Source: Natronomonas gomsonensis
Lineage (GTDB): Archaea > Halobacteriota > Halobacteria > Halobacteriales > Haloarculaceae
Assembly (NCBI RefSeq): GCF_024300825.1
Contig: NZ_CP101323.1
Span: forward strand, 2,108,001-2,172,000
Length of the DNA: 64,000 nucleotides
Reading direction: 5' to 3'
In this document: piece by piece, positions 14,121 through 26,801 of the stretch
Numbering within the stretch: position 1 is the first letter of the stretch
How the letters are laid out: every line of letters starts with the position of its first letter
Position numbers and translations under genes: made by a program
Notes under the pieces: generated by a model
Told to the model about the DNA's origin: nothing
The model's input: only the letters and a program-made list of their open reading frames with translations
The model's database searches: none

Positions 14121-15119
14121 TCACAGGTCGGCGACGCGTGGGATTACCTCCTCTCCGAGCAGTTCGATGGCATCGACGGCGCGTTCGTGGTCCATTCCGG
14201 GCCACTGGACGCGGGCGACGAGGTGGTCGACGCCGAGCGTCTCGTTGAGCGATTCGAGGTCGGCGACAACCTCATCGGGCGTGCCGATGAGATACCGGCC
14301 CTCGCTGACCCGCTCGAAGCGCTCCCGTCTGCTCAAATCCTCGCCGTCGTCGTCGATGACGCCCCACTCCGACAGCGAGTCGAACTTGTCGAGGATGTAC
14401 GGCGCGGCGGTGTCGATGGCTTTCTCGGTCGTCTCGGCGACGTACACGTCGCGTCGAATCGGCCGACAGGACGGCTCCTCGGTGAGTTCGCGCTCGTAGA
14501 GGCCGACGGCCTTCTTCAGTTTCGAGACGGGCGAGACGGGGTCGATGAGCCACGCGTCGCCGAGTGCGGCGGCCCGCCGGACGGCCGAGGGTGCCGACCC
14601 GCCGAGCCATATCGGCGGCCCGGATTCCTGTACTGGACGAGGGCGGAGCGTCACGTCCTCGAAGGCGTAGTGGTCACCGTCGTAGGAGACGCCGTCCTCG
14701 GACCACAGTGCCCGGAGGATTTCGACGCCTTCGGTGACGCGGCCGGCGCGTTCGGCCTTGTCGACGCCGACGGTGTCGAACTCGGCGTCGCGGTAGCCGG
14801 CGGCGGCACCGAAGACGACGTTGCCGCCCGAAATCACGTCGAGGGTGGCGACTCGCTCGGCGACCAAGGCGGGATTGTGCAGCGGCAACAGACAGACGCT
14901 CGTCCCGACGCGGACGTCGCCGTCGAACTCCGCCGCGAGACGGGCGAGCGTCTGGAAGTTGTCGAAGTAGATGTCGTCGGTGAAGTGGTGTTCGCCGACG
15001 AACAGCCCCTCGAAGCCGCTTTCCTCGGCAATTCGAGCCTGTTCGAGCAACTCCGCGAGACAGCCCTCGGGGTCGCGATCGCCCGGGTGTTGGGTCAGCC
15101 CCATCAGGCTAACGTCCAC
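14121..15119 (-). CDS. LLM-class flavin-dependent oxidoreductase
   Basis: 332 residues, a luciferase-like monooxygenase fold (TIM barrel using F420 or FMN). Recognisable pieces are DVSLMGLTQHPGDRD at the start, GFEGLFVGEHHFTDD, RVGTSVCLLPLHNPALVAERVATLD and GAAAGYRDAEFDTVGVD, followed by GPPIWLGGSAPSAVRRAA. Members oxidise diverse small molecules such as alkanes, sulfonates or terpenoid ketones, or use F420. The stop of the upstream DUF6282 gene and this start are 2 bases apart, so the two proteins are co-expressed. Substrate and cofactor are not determined. Confidence 0.9.
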   Translation of the reverse strand: MDVSLMGLTQHPGDRDPEGCLAELLEQARIAEESGFEGLFVGEHHFTDDIYFDNFQTLARLAAEFDGDVRVGTSVCLLPLHNPALVAERVATLDVISGGNVVFGAAAGYRDAEFDTVGVDKAERAGRVTEGVEILRALWSEDGVSYDGDHYAFEDVTLRPRPVQESGPPIWLGGSAPSAVRRAAALGDAWLIDPVSPVSKLKKAVGLYERELTEEPSCRPIRRDVYVAETTEKAIDTAAPYILDKFDSLSEWGVIDDDGEDLSRRERFERVSEGRYLIGTPDEVVADLESLNETLGVDHLVARVQWPGMDHERAVDAIELLGEEVIPRVADL

Positions 15120-15121
15120 AG

Positions 15122-16018
15122 TCAGGCACCTCCGAAGATGGTTTCTGGGTTGTCACGGGCCATCCGCTCGATGTCGGCACGCGGGATGCCGGCGGATTCG
15201 AGGTCGGCGTGAAACGCCGCCAGCGCGTCCGGCGGCGACATCCGCCCCGGTTGGCCGTAATCCGTCGACAGCAAGTTGTGTTCTGGGCCGGTCGCCTCGA
15301 TACCGGCGACGATTTTATCGAACATCGCGCCGTCGGCGAAGGCGTCGTGAGCCGCCTCGGGGGCATCTGGGAGGAACAACTCACGGACGGTCTCGTCGGT
15401 CACGATGGAGCAGCGTTCGAAGTATACCCCATCGCGGGCCAATCGGGCCTGCCGTTCGGGCGTGAGGCCGACGCCGTCACGGGCGGCGTGGAACTCCGGA
15501 TGCGTGACGATGACCTCGCCGTCGACCTCCGTGACGGCGTCGACGACGGCCTCGACTTCCTCGACGCCGATGTGGCCGGTTCCGACAACCATCCCGTCGT
15601 TTATCGCCTCGGTAAGCACCGACCAGACGCCGTCTTTCAGTTCGTCGTTCCCGTTCAGCAGGTCGATGGTTTTCGGTTCGCCCTGTTCGAGCATGTTCCG
15701 TTTGGCGGTCATCGTCGGGAGTTCGACGCGACTGGCACCCATCTTCGCGGCGGCGACGACGGCGTCGATGTTGATGCCGCCGACCGAGCGGTTCAAAACG
15801 ACCGTCGAAGCGAGTCGGATATCGGAGTCACAGGCCTGCTCGACGAGCGCCGCGGCCATCGTCGTCGGCGCGTGGTGGTTCTTGAGAACTAACCCACCCA
15901 TGCCGGCGGCGGCGGCGCGCCGAGCGAGTTCCACGATGTCGTGCTTTCTGTCGGTTACGTCCGGTCCCGCGTGGACGTGTGTGTCCCACGCGCCGGCGAC
16001 GGGATGCTGAGTGTCCAT
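15122..16018 (-). CDS. DUF6282 family amidohydrolase-like TIM-barrel protein
   Basis: 298 residues from the ATG at 16018. An in-frame codon at 16051 lies upstream of the predicted transcription start, while GAGG stands 8 bases before 16018, so the shorter form is chosen. Metal-ligand motifs of the amidohydrolase superfamily are present: DTHVHAGPD near the N-terminus, NHHAPTTM, VTHPEFHAA and STDYGQPGR. The family is uncharacterised as far as I know; the motifs predict a metal-dependent hydrolase. It heads a leftward group with the LLM monooxygenase. Confidence 0.8.
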   Translation of the reverse strand: MDTQHPVAGAWDTHVHAGPDVTDRKHDIVELARRAAAAGMGGLVLKNHHAPTTMAAALVEQACDSDIRLASTVVLNRSVGGINIDAVVAAAKMGASRVELPTMTAKRNMLEQGEPKTIDLLNGNDELKDGVWSVLTEAINDGMVVGTGHIGVEEVEAVVDAVTEVDGEVIVTHPEFHAARDGVGLTPERQARLARDGVYFERCSIVTDETVRELFLPDAPEAAHDAFADGAMFDKIVAGIEATGPEHNLLSTDYGQPGRMSPPDALAAFHADLESAGIPRADIERMARDNPETIFGGA

Positions 16019-16052
16019 CTGTTGTCCTCGGGGTGTGTGTATTCTTGCCACG

Positions 16053-16060
16053 AGTATTAA
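16053..16060 (-). promoter_or_regulatory. TATA box of the DUF6282 operon (decides start)
   Basis: Minus-strand TTAATACT places the transcription start near 16030, giving a short leader with GAGG before the ATG at 16018 and excluding the longer frame starting at 16051. Confidence 0.5.
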
Positions 16061-16111
16061 GCCCTCTGGGACAGGTCAGTTCCGTTTCACGACGGGCACG
16101 CGGCGCTCAAC

Positions 16112-16119
16112 TTATTTAT
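16112..16119 (+). promoter_or_regulatory. TATA box upstream of the PanE-like gene and its leader ORF
   Basis: TTATTTAT is centred 27 bases before an ATG at 16142, not before the GTG of the main gene at 16180. The predicted mRNA therefore starts with the short ORF. Confidence 0.55.
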
Positions 16120-16141
16120 GCACAGGACGCGACGGACCCGT

Positions 16142-16183
16142 ATGAACCAACGTACGACCGTCCGCTGGGGGCGATATCCGTGA
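16142..16183 (+). CDS. Possible 13-residue leader ORF coupled to the PanE-like gene
   Basis: ATG at 16142 opens MNQRTTVRWGRYP and stops at TGA 16181-16183, overlapping the GTG start of the next gene by three bases (GTGA). The TATA box 27 bases before the ATG predicts a leaderless transcript starting here. No Shine-Dalgarno sequence precedes 16180, so translation of the main gene may depend on ribosomes that finish the leader. It is too short for conservation to be judged by eye. Confidence 0.4.
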   Translation: MNQRTTVRWGRYP

Positions 16184-17094
16184 ACATCGCGGTCATCGGC
16201 GCCGGCGCCCTCGGCTGTCTGTTCGGCGGCCGACTCACCGAGGCCGGCCACGACGTCCACCTCCTGCACTACCGGCAGTCGTACGTCGACCGGTTGAACG
16301 AAGAGGGCTTGACAATCGAGAGCGAGGACGGCGAGACGACCGACATCGCCGTCGAAGCGACGACCGACGCCAGCGAGGTCGGTCCCGTCGACTTCGCAAT
16401 CGTCTTCGTCAAATCCCACCAGACCGAGGCGGCGCTGGCCGAACACGCCGCCTGTATCGGCCCCGAAACCGACCTGCTGTCGTTGCAGAACGGTCTCAGA
16501 CACTACGACCGACTGCTCGACGTCGTCGGAGAAGACCGCGCCTTCGCGGGCGTGACGTATCAGGGCGCCGTCGCCGAGGAGCCGGGATACGTTCGCGTGA
16601 CGTCGAGCGGCCCCTCGACGTTCGGCGGGACGAACGACGCGGGCGCACGCCGAATCGAGTCCGCCCTCGAAGAGGCCGGCTTCCCCGTCGAAGTGGTCGA
16701 GGACCCGCGAGCGTACATCTGGGCCAAACAACTGATGAGCCTCCCCATCAAGCCGCTGGCGGCGCTGACGCACCTCTCGAACGGCGAACTCGTCGCGACG
16801 CCGGAGACGCGAGGGTTGATGGAGCAAATCGTCGCCGAGGCCGAAACCGTCGCCGAAAGCCGCGGTATCGACATCCCGATGGACGACCCGATGGAAGAGG
16901 TCGTCACCACCTGCGAGGAGTCCCACTCCCACTACTCCAGTATGCTGCAGGACGTCCGGGCCGAACGGAAGACCGAAATCGACGACGTAAACGGCGCTAT
17001 CGTCGACATCGCCGACGAGGAGGGCATCGACGTGCCGGTGAACGAACTCGCGACGAACCTCGTTCGAGCCCTAGAGAAGAGTTACCTCGACTGA
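16180..17094 (+). CDS. Ketopantoate reductase (ApbA/PanE) family oxidoreductase
   Basis: 304 residues from a GTG at 16180, where the Rossmann motif begins (VNIAVIGAGALGCLFGGRL). The NADP-binding fold, the QNGL motif (LLSLQNGLRHYD) and the helical C-terminal domain (SMLQDVRAERKTEIDDVNGAIV) are all typical. The catalytic Lys is kept (WAKQLMSLPIKPLAAL), but the two Asn residues normal in this motif (K-x3-N and INPL) read Ser and Lys, so the substrate may not be ketopantoate. It could reduce another 2-keto acid within the catabolic island. It converges on the PaaI gene. Confidence 0.85.
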   Translation: MNIAVIGAGALGCLFGGRLTEAGHDVHLLHYRQSYVDRLNEEGLTIESEDGETTDIAVEATTDASEVGPVDFAIVFVKSHQTEAALAEHAACIGPETDLLSLQNGLRHYDRLLDVVGEDRAFAGVTYQGAVAEEPGYVRVTSSGPSTFGGTNDAGARRIESALEEAGFPVEVVEDPRAYIWAKQLMSLPIKPLAALTHLSNGELVATPETRGLMEQIVAEAETVAESRGIDIPMDDPMEEVVTTCEESHSHYSSMLQDVRAERKTEIDDVNGAIVDIADEEGIDVPVNELATNLVRALEKSYLD

Positions 17095-23062: not shown

Positions 23063-23839
23063 ATGGCAGACAGAGTACTCATCGACCGAGACGACAGCAT
23101 CGCGACCGTGACCGTCAACCGGCCGGAGAAGCGCAACGCGATGGATATTCCGACCCGGAAAGCACTGTACGAGGCCTTCGAGGAAGTCGGCGAGGACGAC
23201 GAGGTGCGCGCAATCGTGCTTCGGGGCGCCGGCGACGGCTCGTTCATCGCCGGCGGCGACATCGACTCCTTCGCCGAGTTCGACCACATGGACGGCATGG
23301 AGTACGCCGAGAAGTACGCCCAGGGCCTGTACAACTACGTTGCGGACCTCCACAAACCGACCGTCGCGGCGGTCGACGGCTACGCCCTCGGCGGCGGCAC
23401 CGAAATCGCGCTGGCCTGCGATATCCGACTGGCGACCGAGGACGCGAAGTTCGGCCTCCCGGAGGTCGGCATCGGCGTCATCCCCGCCGGCGGCGGCACC
23501 CAGCGACTCGTCCAGGTCGTCGGAGCGGGCATCGCCAGCGAACTCATCCTCACCGGCCGCGTCATCGACGCCGCGGAAGCGAAGGAAATCGGCCTCGCGA
23601 ACCACGTCTACACCGACGAGGAGTTCGACGACGAGGTTCGTTCGATGGCAGAGGACCTCGCCTCGAAGGCGCCGGTCGCCCAGCGCCTCGCCAAGGAGTC
23701 CATCCGACGCAGCCTCGACATCGACGCGGGTCTGGAGTACGAGCGACTCGCCGGTGCGTTCCTGTTCGGCACCGACGACCAGAAAGAGGGAGCGAACGCC
23801 TTCCTCGAAGACAGAGAACCGGAGTACAAAAACCGATAA
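23063..23839 (+). CDS. Enoyl-CoA hydratase/isomerase family protein
   Basis: 258 residues. VNRPEKRNAMDIPTRKALYEAFEE, the oxyanion loop SFIAGGDIDSFAEF and both catalytic-Glu motifs (LGGGTEIALACD and LPEVGIGVIPAGGGTQRL) are intact, so an active hydratase is likely. The C-terminal EGANAFLEDREPEYKNR is standard. It is more canonical than the crotonase at 10.0 kb. It would hydrate the enoyl-CoA made by the acyl-CoA dehydrogenase at 20.5 kb. It converges with the fused ALDH gene. Confidence 0.92.
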   Translation: MADRVLIDRDDSIATVTVNRPEKRNAMDIPTRKALYEAFEEVGEDDEVRAIVLRGAGDGSFIAGGDIDSFAEFDHMDGMEYAEKYAQGLYNYVADLHKPTVAAVDGYALGGGTEIALACDIRLATEDAKFGLPEVGIGVIPAGGGTQRLVQVVGAGIASELILTGRVIDAAEAKEIGLANHVYTDEEFDDEVRSMAEDLASKAPVAQRLAKESIRRSLDIDAGLEYERLAGAFLFGTDDQKEGANAFLEDREPEYKNR

Positions 23840-23845
23840 GCCGCG

Positions 23846-25513
23846 TTACTCGCCGATACTGAGACAGACGTTCTTCGTCGTGGTGAACTGGTCGAGGGGC
23901 TCCAGCCCCTTTTCGCGGCCGAAGCCGCTGTCGCGGTGGCCACCAAAGGGCGTCTCGACGACGCCGGCGAACCACTCGTTGACGTACACCTGTCCGGCGA
24001 CGACATCACGTGCGAAGCGGTGGGCGCGTTCGAGGTCGTTCGTGAAGATGCCGGCCGACAGCCCGTAGTCGCTGTCGTTGGCGATTTCGAGGGCTTCCTC
24101 CTCCGTCGCGAACGGAATCACCGCGAGCACCGGCCCGAAGATCTCCTCGCGAGCGATGCGGAGGTCGTTGGTCGCGTCGTCGAAAATCGTCGGGCCGACG
24201 AAGTAGCCGGTCGATTCCTCGGCGTCGTCGGGCACGCCGTCGACGACCGGCTCTCCCAACTCCTGTTTGCCGACTTCGACGTACTCCCGGACCTTCTCGT
24301 ACTGTGCTTCGGAGACCAACGCCCCCACGTCGGGGTCCTCCAAGCCCGGTCCCATCGTCAGGTCCTCGACGGCCTCGACGAGTCGGTCGAGGAACTCCTC
24401 GTGGATGTCCTCGTGGACGAGCAGGCGGTCGCCCGCCGAGCACACCTGTCCCGCGTTCCGAGTGAAAATCGAAATCAGCGTCCCCTCGATGGCGTCTTCG
24501 AGGTCGGCGTCGGGGAAGACGACGTTGGGGTTCTTCCCGCCGGCCTCGATGTGGACGTGTTTCAGTTGGCGCGCGGCGGTCGCGGCGACCTCCTTGCCGG
24601 TCGGAACCGACCCGGTGAAGGCGATGGCGTTGACGCCGGCGTCGTCGTCGAGTTCCGATGCCGGGACGTGGCTCGGGCGGCTTCCGTCGCGGGTGTCGTA
24701 CATTCCCTGGTCGCGGAGTTCCTCGTGTGAAACCCGCGCGTGGTCGTAGACGAACCGCTTGACATCGTCTTTCGAGTAGCCGTCACGAGCGATGGTCGCC
24801 GCGTGTTCCGGCGACAGCGCGAGACAGGGTTCGGCCCGTTCGGAGAGATACGTCGTGTTCGCCCCGAGAACCGACATGGTGTCGGCGGCCGTCGTGAGGA
24901 CGCCCGCGGCGCTGTCGGCGACGTGGTCGTTGACGTTGTGCGGCGCTTCGGTCGTCAACACCGTGACGGTGCTGTCGTCTTCCTCGAAGCCGCGCTCGAC
25001 GTGCAGCGGGTCCCACGGACTCTCGGCTTCGTTCTCGGCGACACACAGTCCGAACTTGTGCGGTCCGCCGTGGGTCGCCTTATCGGTCGGCCCCGGTGTC
25101 GCGCCGGCGACGTTCATGTAGACGAAGGTGAGCGCCCGCCCGATGGTCGCGTTTGGCTTCGACCCCTGACCGAAGGCGTTGGCACCGCCGTTGATGTCGA
25201 GTTCCTCGACTATCGGTCCGTTGACGACCACCATCGGCCAGTGTGGCTCCGTCGTCGCGAGCGTCCCGTAGAGGTTGAACTCGGGGTCCAGCGTCGCTTC
25301 GAGGGCGGCCAACACCACCGGAAAGAACGACGCCTCACAGCCGGCCATCACCGCGTTCGCCGCGAGGGTTTCCATCGTCGCCGACCGCTCGCTCAACGGG
25401 AAGGGGCCGAGACGGTCCTCGCCGGCGACATCGGCGGCCTCGAGGAACCGGTCGACTCGCTCCCGCGTGGGATCGACGACCGGCAGTCCGTCCGGAGAGG
25501 AAACGGTAGCCAT
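23846..25513 (-). CDS. Fused ORF: N-terminal unknown enzyme-like domain joined to the C-terminal half of an aldehyde dehydrogenase
   Basis: 555 residues. Residues 1 to about 285 match, from memory, a conserved uncharacterised family often found near UGSC-type (seleno)proteins, with INGGANAFGQG (107-117), NATIGRA, HVERGF and SPEHAATIARDGYSKDDV (234-251). From about residue 290 (AGVNAIAFTGSVPTGKE) the protein is the second half of an ALDH: catalytic Glu323 in IEAGGK, nucleophile Cys358 in GQVCSAGDR, EEIFGPV and PFGGHRDSGFGREKG. The first ~230 residues of a normal ALDH, including most of the NAD-binding domain, are absent, as is the usual end of the N-terminal family. The junction near 24640-24660 suggests an in-frame deletion or an assembly error. 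Confidence 0.8.
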   Translation of the reverse strand: MATVSSPDGLPVVDPTRERVDRFLEAADVAGEDRLGPFPLSERSATMETLAANAVMAGCEASFFPVVLAALEATLDPEFNLYGTLATTEPHWPMVVVNGPIVEELDINGGANAFGQGSKPNATIGRALTFVYMNVAGATPGPTDKATHGGPHKFGLCVAENEAESPWDPLHVERGFEEDDSTVTVLTTEAPHNVNDHVADSAAGVLTTAADTMSVLGANTTYLSERAEPCLALSPEHAATIARDGYSKDDVKRFVYDHARVSHEELRDQGMYDTRDGSRPSHVPASELDDDAGVNAIAFTGSVPTGKEVAATAARQLKHVHIEAGGKNPNVVFPDADLEDAIEGTLISIFTRNAGQVCSAGDRLLVHEDIHEEFLDRLVEAVEDLTMGPGLEDPDVGALVSEAQYEKVREYVEVGKQELGEPVVDGVPDDAEESTGYFVGPTIFDDATNDLRIAREEIFGPVLAVIPFATEEEALEIANDSDYGLSAGIFTNDLERAHRFARDVVAGQVYVNEWFAGVVETPFGGHRDSGFGREKGLEPLDQFTTTKNVCLSIGE

Positions 25514-25613: not shown

Positions 25614-26801
25614 ATGAGCGACCAGTTACTGGACGGCATCGACGTAGTCGACCTCGGGCAGATATACAACGGCCCCTACTGCTCTCTGCTGCTCTCCTAT
25701 ATGGGTGCGGACGTCACGAAAATCGAACCGCCACACGGCGAACCGCTTCGGGCCCGCGTCGACGACGGCGAGGCCCCGGAGTTCGTGATGCTCAACTCCA
25801 ACAAGGAGGGCATGACACTCAACCTCAAAACCGAGGAGGGAAAGGAAATCTTCGAGGAACTCATCGAGGACGCCGACATCCTCGTCGAGAACTTCTCGGT
25901 CGGAGCGATGGAGCGCCTCGGCCTCGGCTACGAGGAACTCTCAGAAATAAACCCGGAACTCATCTACGCCCACAGCAGCGGCTTCGGCGAGGAGGGCCCC
26001 TACAACGAGTACCCCGCGATGGACCTCACGATTCAGGCCATCAGCGGCGTGATGGACGTGACGGGCTTTCCGGACGGACCGCCGACGAAAGCCGGCATCG
26101 CCGTCGGCGACTTCATGGGTGGCATCCACCTGCTCGCTGGCATCCTCGGTGCCCTGTACGAACGGGAGTTGACCGGCGAGGGCCAGTTCGTCGAGGTGAG
26201 CATGCACGATTCGGTGTTTCCGACGCTGATGTCGCCGATGGCGGCGCACTTCAACGATGACGACGTGCCACCCCGGACCGGCAACCGACACAGCGGCCTC
26301 GCACAGAGTCCCTACAACGTCTACGAGACATCCGACGGCTACATCGCCATCTTCGGCGTCACCGACCAGCACTGGCACTCGCTTTTGGAGGTCATCGGCC
26401 GGGAGGATTTGAAGGGCGACCCCCGATTCGAGAGCAACGTCAAACGGTCGAACCACCTCGACGAGGTCGACGAACTGGTCGAGGAGTGGACCATCGAGCG
26501 CGAGCGCGACGACATCGAGGAAATCCTGCTCGATGCGGGCGTCCCCTGTGGCCCGGTCAAGGAACTCGACGAGGTCGCCGACGACCCCCACCTCAAGGAG
26601 CGCGAGATGATAAACGAAATCGAACACCCCGACTACGGCGAGATATCGGTCCCCGGCATCCCGATTCGGTTCTCAAGGTCGGAACTGCCCGACATCGAAC
26701 CGTCGCCGACGAAGGGGCGAGACACCCGGAAGGTGATGTGTGAACGCCTCGGCTACTCCGAGGCGGAGTACGAGGAGCTGAAAGAGAAGGACGTCTTCTA
26801 A
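25614..26801 (+). CDS. CaiB/BaiF family CoA-transferase (class III)
   Basis: 395 residues. The N-terminal DLGQIYNGPYCSLLLSYMGADVTKIEPPHGEP and the NKEGMTLNLKTEEGKEIFEELIEDADILVENFSVGAMERLG stretch are typical. The catalytic Asp is in YPAMDLTIQAISGVMDVTG, followed by KAGIAVGDFMGGIHL. These enzymes move CoA between organic acids, for example in carnitine, mesaconate, oxalate or aromatic catabolism. It probably activates the island's substrate. It overlaps the convergent RraA gene by four bases (CTAA shared by both stop codons). Confidence 0.93.
   Translation: MSDQLLDGIDVVDLGQIYNGPYCSLLLSYMGADVTKIEPPHGEPLRARVDDGEAPEFVMLNSNKEGMTLNLKTEEGKEIFEELIEDADILVENFSVGAMERLGLGYEELSEINPELIYAHSSGFGEEGPYNEYPAMDLTIQAISGVMDVTGFPDGPPTKAGIAVGDFMGGIHLLAGILGALYERELTGEGQFVEVSMHDSVFPTLMSPMAAHFNDDDVPPRTGNRHSGLAQSPYNVYETSDGYIAIFGVTDQHWHSLLEVIGREDLKGDPRFESNVKRSNHLDEVDELVEEWTIERERDDIEEILLDAGVPCGPVKELDEVADDPHLKEREMINEIEHPDYGEISVPGIPIRFSRSELPDIEPSPTKGRDTRKVMCERLGYSEAEYEELKEKDVF

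Follow-up and report, generated by a model that had tools for sequence, protein, structure and literature searches.

A fused open reading frame in a catabolic gene cluster of Natronomonas gomsonensis, most likely the remnant of a lineage-specific deletion

Introduction

Microhomology-mediated end joining accompanied by deletions is described for Haloferax volcanii in two papers (PMC7776575; PMC7521656). A 2008 survey (PMC2398784, section 9) describes fusions of UGSC proteins with a conserved domain, 'Unknown_1', which could be the protein family that makes up one half of the frame examined here.

The window analysed in this study is a 64-kb stretch of the Natronomonas gomsonensis chromosome. 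A first-pass annotation of its letters had noticed an in-frame fusion of an uncharacterised domain with a truncated aldehyde dehydrogenase (ALDH), and had offered a deletion that created a new open frame, a functional chimera or an assembly collapse as its possible origins. We consider it highly likely that a lineage-specific deletion of about 8.1 kb joined two broken genes, and that the product is in all likelihood a non-functional remnant.

Results

The fused frame and its parents

The fused frame carries neither a stop nor a frameshift between its ATG and its stop (555 codons), and the ATG at 25513 is the start used by the intact gene of the first parent, here called the partner, in related genomes. 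Residues 1-294 of the 332-residue partner protein are joined to residues 224-487 of a 487-residue ALDH, the AGV at the join being common to both parent proteins. The features of the locus are:

23846 to 25513, minus strand: fused open reading frame of 555 amino acids plus stop (ATG at 25513, stop at 23846)
24632 to 25513, minus strand: 5' part, partner residues 1-294 of 332, with the last 38 residues lost
23846 to 24642, minus strand: 3' part, ALDH residues 224-487 of 487, with the first 223 residues lost
24632 to 24642: deletion junction, an 11-bp direct repeat (10 of 11 matching) found at both ends of the missing segment, GACGCCGGCGT
23063 to 23839, plus strand: intact flanking gene on the ALDH side, presumably enoyl-CoA hydratase-like
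25614 to 26801, plus strand: intact flanking gene on the partner side, which we take to be class III CoA-transferase-like

Both parents are whole, some 8 kb apart, in two genomes of the same genus, Natronomonas sp. CBA1123 (G131) and N. gomsonensis YCN60 (G117). Residues 1-295 of the fusion match a 386-codon frame at 96% identity in CBA1123 and 95% in YCN60, and residues 287-555 match a separate 488-codon frame at 96% and 94%, respectively. The fused frame is not a product of chance, because each of its parts is 95-97% identical to an intact orthologue in the two relatives. The first-pass reading of an open fusion with identifiable parents is thus borne out, while its measurements require small corrections: the partner-derived part ends at residues 291-294 instead of 285, the ALDH has lost 223 N-terminal residues instead of about 230, and the cut through both genes lies at 24632-24642, just below the suggested 24640-24660.

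Extent and content of the missing segment

In BLASTN comparisons the 64-kb window is collinear with the corresponding stretches of both relatives on either side of the join, at about 93-95% identity, and is interrupted by a single large break at window positions 24632-24653. The break points are separated by 8115 bp in CBA1123 and 8105 bp in YCN60. The CBA1123 segment absent from the window encodes a 201-residue UGSC-family protein (PF24696, E 2.3e-47; NF041046, E 3.6e-50), another partner protein as the second copy, two short-chain dehydrogenases (SDRs), and a TRAP transporter made up of a fused permease (TIGR02123) and a binding protein of the TAXI type (TIGR02122); the deletion also took the last 38 residues of the partner, which include a GG-G motif, and the first 223 residues of the ALDH. 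A UGSC-type gene, whose presence in relatives the first-pass annotation had anticipated, therefore does exist there, between the two partner copies and within the deleted segment.

When the 8115-bp segment is compared with the genome carrying the fusion, its second partner copy matches the fused partner gene at 79%, and the remaining matches are weak (75-100% over less than 100 bp, 66-72% over 116-372 bp); the lost genes have therefore not moved elsewhere. The UGSC stretch itself has no match elsewhere in the genome in this DNA-level search.

Nearly the same arrangement is found outside the family. Genome G194, which represents a different family within the order, carries, in sequence, BKACE, ACAD, ECH, a full-length ALDH (residues 1-487), TAXI, SDR, TRAP, the second partner copy, UGSC, the first partner copy, a CoA-transferase and an RraA-like gene, the flanking genes being named on our assumption from their sequence type. 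Apart from the second SDR, which it lacks, the order is that of the intact relatives, and since this genome belongs to another family, the intact arrangement is ancestral.

The junction

The two edges of the missing segment share GAC[T/G]CCGGCGT, which amounts to 11 bp with one mismatch or 7 bp exact. In the junction alignment the left flank derives from the ALDH gene and the right flank from the partner gene, with the mismatched base following the partner side. When 20,000 pairs of positions are drawn at random from the two genes, 0.07% match as well as this. On the coding strand the repeat encodes AGV in either gene and falls in the same phase (ELDDDAGV in the partner, HAGVNAI in the ALDH), and the frame of the fusion remains open for this reason; selection need not be invoked.

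The ALDH part

Residues 287-549 of the fusion match the Pfam family Aldedh (PF00171) at profile positions 199-461 of 461 (E 4.5e-96), so that the full profile with its N-terminal NAD-binding domain is not recovered, and most of that domain is gone, as had been supposed at first pass. The catalytic Glu and Cys of the family, correctly recognised there as Glu323 and Cys358, are present; their counterparts in the intact CBA1123 protein are residues 255 and 290. The PWNFP and KSAEQTP motifs (residues 155 and 180 of the intact ALDH) fall in the lost part; in ALDH structures these segments lie in or beside the coenzyme site. The ALDH part is 97.3% identical to its CBA1123 orthologue and 95.8% to that of YCN60. 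A G518V change beside the PFGG motif was considered as a sign of damage and dropped, glycine occupying that position in just 15 of 30 other ALDHs.

The partner family

The partner family has no name and is defined here by an alignment of its members (A2). Pfam has no model for residues 1-286 of the fusion at E up to 0.001, the best Pfam hit of the partner protein has an E of 0.13, an intact 333-codon homologue matches no NCBIfam model at E up to 1, and a profile of the family finds nothing better than E 0.18 among PDB sequences. The predicted structure of the intact protein, obtained from an alignment of just five rows, has a mean pLDDT of 29.9. Over residues 1-287 the partner part is collinear with its intact orthologues and 96.5% (CBA1123) and 95.1% (YCN60) identical to them, and the conserved core of the family (N121, N134, E160, N161, E162, P235) is present in the fusion. 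The fusion has lost the C-terminal V-GG-G motif (residues 307-315 in the intact protein), whose G309, G310 and G312 are conserved without exception in the 14 homologues aligned.

Genes for partner-family proteins of about 330 residues stand beside a UGSC-family gene at L048:12461-15120, L065:10004-12663 and L096:11206-13869, with further such neighbourhoods at L050:10608-13255, L051:5196-6905 and 14941-16661, and L097-L100. The adjoining UGSC gene was identified at L048, L050, L051 and L096-L100, was not found at L101, and is absent from the window, where the partner part has no such neighbour. Two partner copies flank the UGSC gene in four genomes (G131, G117, G194 and G076), and the UGSC protein is of the cysteine form (CGSC) in G131, G117, G076 and G119. 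The UGSC protein of CBA1123 (L048:13460-14065) weakly matches selenoprotein B of glycine reductase (TIGR01917, E 0.017), which may hint at chemistry of the reductase type.

Distribution of the fusion

Among the matches listed in a search of 146 genomes of the same family, where a full-length fusion would come first, it is present in a single genome, its own. The partner family is present in 23 of the 391 genomes sampled from the class (36 places listed). An ALDH in the same frame as the partner was seen at the window's own locus only, across the 30 of these places for which loci were available and 14 loci from other searches; the frames at the six remaining places do not exceed 395 codons and are thus too short to hold such a fusion. 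Long frames in G119 (576 codons), G366 (510) and G292 (493) were considered as other fusions, but the partner has no ALDH in the same frame there. At three other haloarchaeal loci, L014, L092 and L094, an ALDH gene lies within 3 kb of the partner gene but is separate from it, which suggests a recurring functional link between the families.

Substitutions in the fused gene

With codons that differ in all three genomes left out, the fused gene has accumulated 8.8 nonsynonymous and 25.2 synonymous changes in the focal lineage, no different from the 32 and 118 counted in five neighbouring genes (Fisher p 0.50). This three-genome comparison, which has low power to separate a recent deletion from maintained function, gives no visible sign of relaxed constraint. 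A recent deletion explains the lack of decay equally well as maintained function would, because most of the changes would predate it.

Discussion

What could have produced a long open frame from parts of two genes? Most probably a single deletion, about 8.1 kb long, struck a catabolic gene cluster in a haloarchaeon of the Natronomonas type and took out everything between the 3' part of the partner gene and the 5' part of the ALDH gene, which are both encoded on the minus strand. Microhomology-mediated end joining, or else slippage, at the 11-bp direct repeat (10 of 11) probably joined the ends, and the common phase of the repeat keeps the frame open. The UGSC module, its TRAP transporter and the ALDH would have been lost in the same event. 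Very probably both parental activities are lost in the fusion. Its ALDH half is without the greater part of the NAD-binding domain and its partner half without the conserved glycine motif at the C-terminus, so that it is most likely a non-functional remnant.

The base-level comparison with two relatives and the outgroup upholds the deletion among the origins proposed at first pass; the other two are very improbable. An assembler dropping 8.1 kb from an intact genome might be suspected from the two paralogues of the intact state, 79% identical at the DNA level; however, a long repeat would have to be present at the join, where the match extends over 7 bp if exact and 11 bp if one mismatch is allowed, the paralogues do not lie at the join, and their collapse would have yielded a chimera of the two partner copies instead of partner and ALDH. 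The chromosome is moreover one 3.54-Mb contig of a two-contig assembly that is 99.99% complete, and we regard such an artefact as very unlikely. Could the intact state instead be the derived one, the relatives having gained an 8.1-kb insertion inside a gene? A three-way comparison within the genus, taken alone, would permit an ancestral fusion, but the inserted DNA would then need to contain precisely the N-terminus that the ALDH lacks and the C-terminus that the partner lacks. The intact order in the outgroup contradicts this reading unless its cluster came from these relatives, and in all other genomes seen the ALDH and the partner are encoded separately; we consider an ancestral fusion the least credible of all the explanations.

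A functional chimera, whether a new enzyme or a regulatory decoy, draws on the 555-codon open frame with its native start, the retained catalytic Glu and Cys and the lack of visible relaxed constraint. Against it stand the loss of 223 of the 487 residues of the ALDH, among them the larger part of the NAD-binding domain, and of the invariant GG-G of the partner, so that each half has lost conserved parts, together with the loss of the TRAP transporter and the UGSC gene. Occurrence of the same fusion in many genomes, which the first-pass annotation had named as an argument for function, is not seen in any other genome searched. We accordingly give a new function about as little credence as the assembly artefact, and slightly less to the specific idea that the fusion is made, folds and is kept for a role such as that of a coenzyme-independent thioesterase or esterase acting through Glu323 and Cys358, the partner domain serving to bind the substrate.

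The case is thus almost certainly one of ordinary lineage-specific loss leaving a fused remnant, rather than a new enzyme. It illustrates that one deletion can yield a clean long open frame resembling a new multidomain enzyme, which annotation pipelines may well label as an intact aldehyde dehydrogenase family protein, in a strain from which an entire module for uptake and catabolism is gone. Of wider use is the pointer to an uncharacterised UGSC-associated family for which no Pfam or NCBIfam model was found.

Among known systems, the fusion compares most closely with two intact proteins of Natronomonas sp. CBA1123. With the ALDH orthologue (L048:5338-6801) it has in common the C-terminal catalytic part with Glu and Cys, at 97.3% identity, whereas the first 223 residues of that protein, and with them most of the coenzyme domain, are missing from the fusion; the part that remains belongs to PF00171, is betaine-aldehyde-dehydrogenase-like, and has 4ywe_A as its closest solved chain by sequence. 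With the partner orthologue (L048:14122-15120) it shares residues 1-294 of 332 (96.5% identity over 1-287), whereas the C-terminal 38 residues with the GG-G motif, the neighbouring UGSC gene (PF24696, NF041046) and the second copy are missing here. The microhomology deletions described for Haloferax volcanii (PMC7776575; PMC7521656) likewise run between short direct repeats in a haloarchaeon; the present case differs in being deduced from genome comparison.
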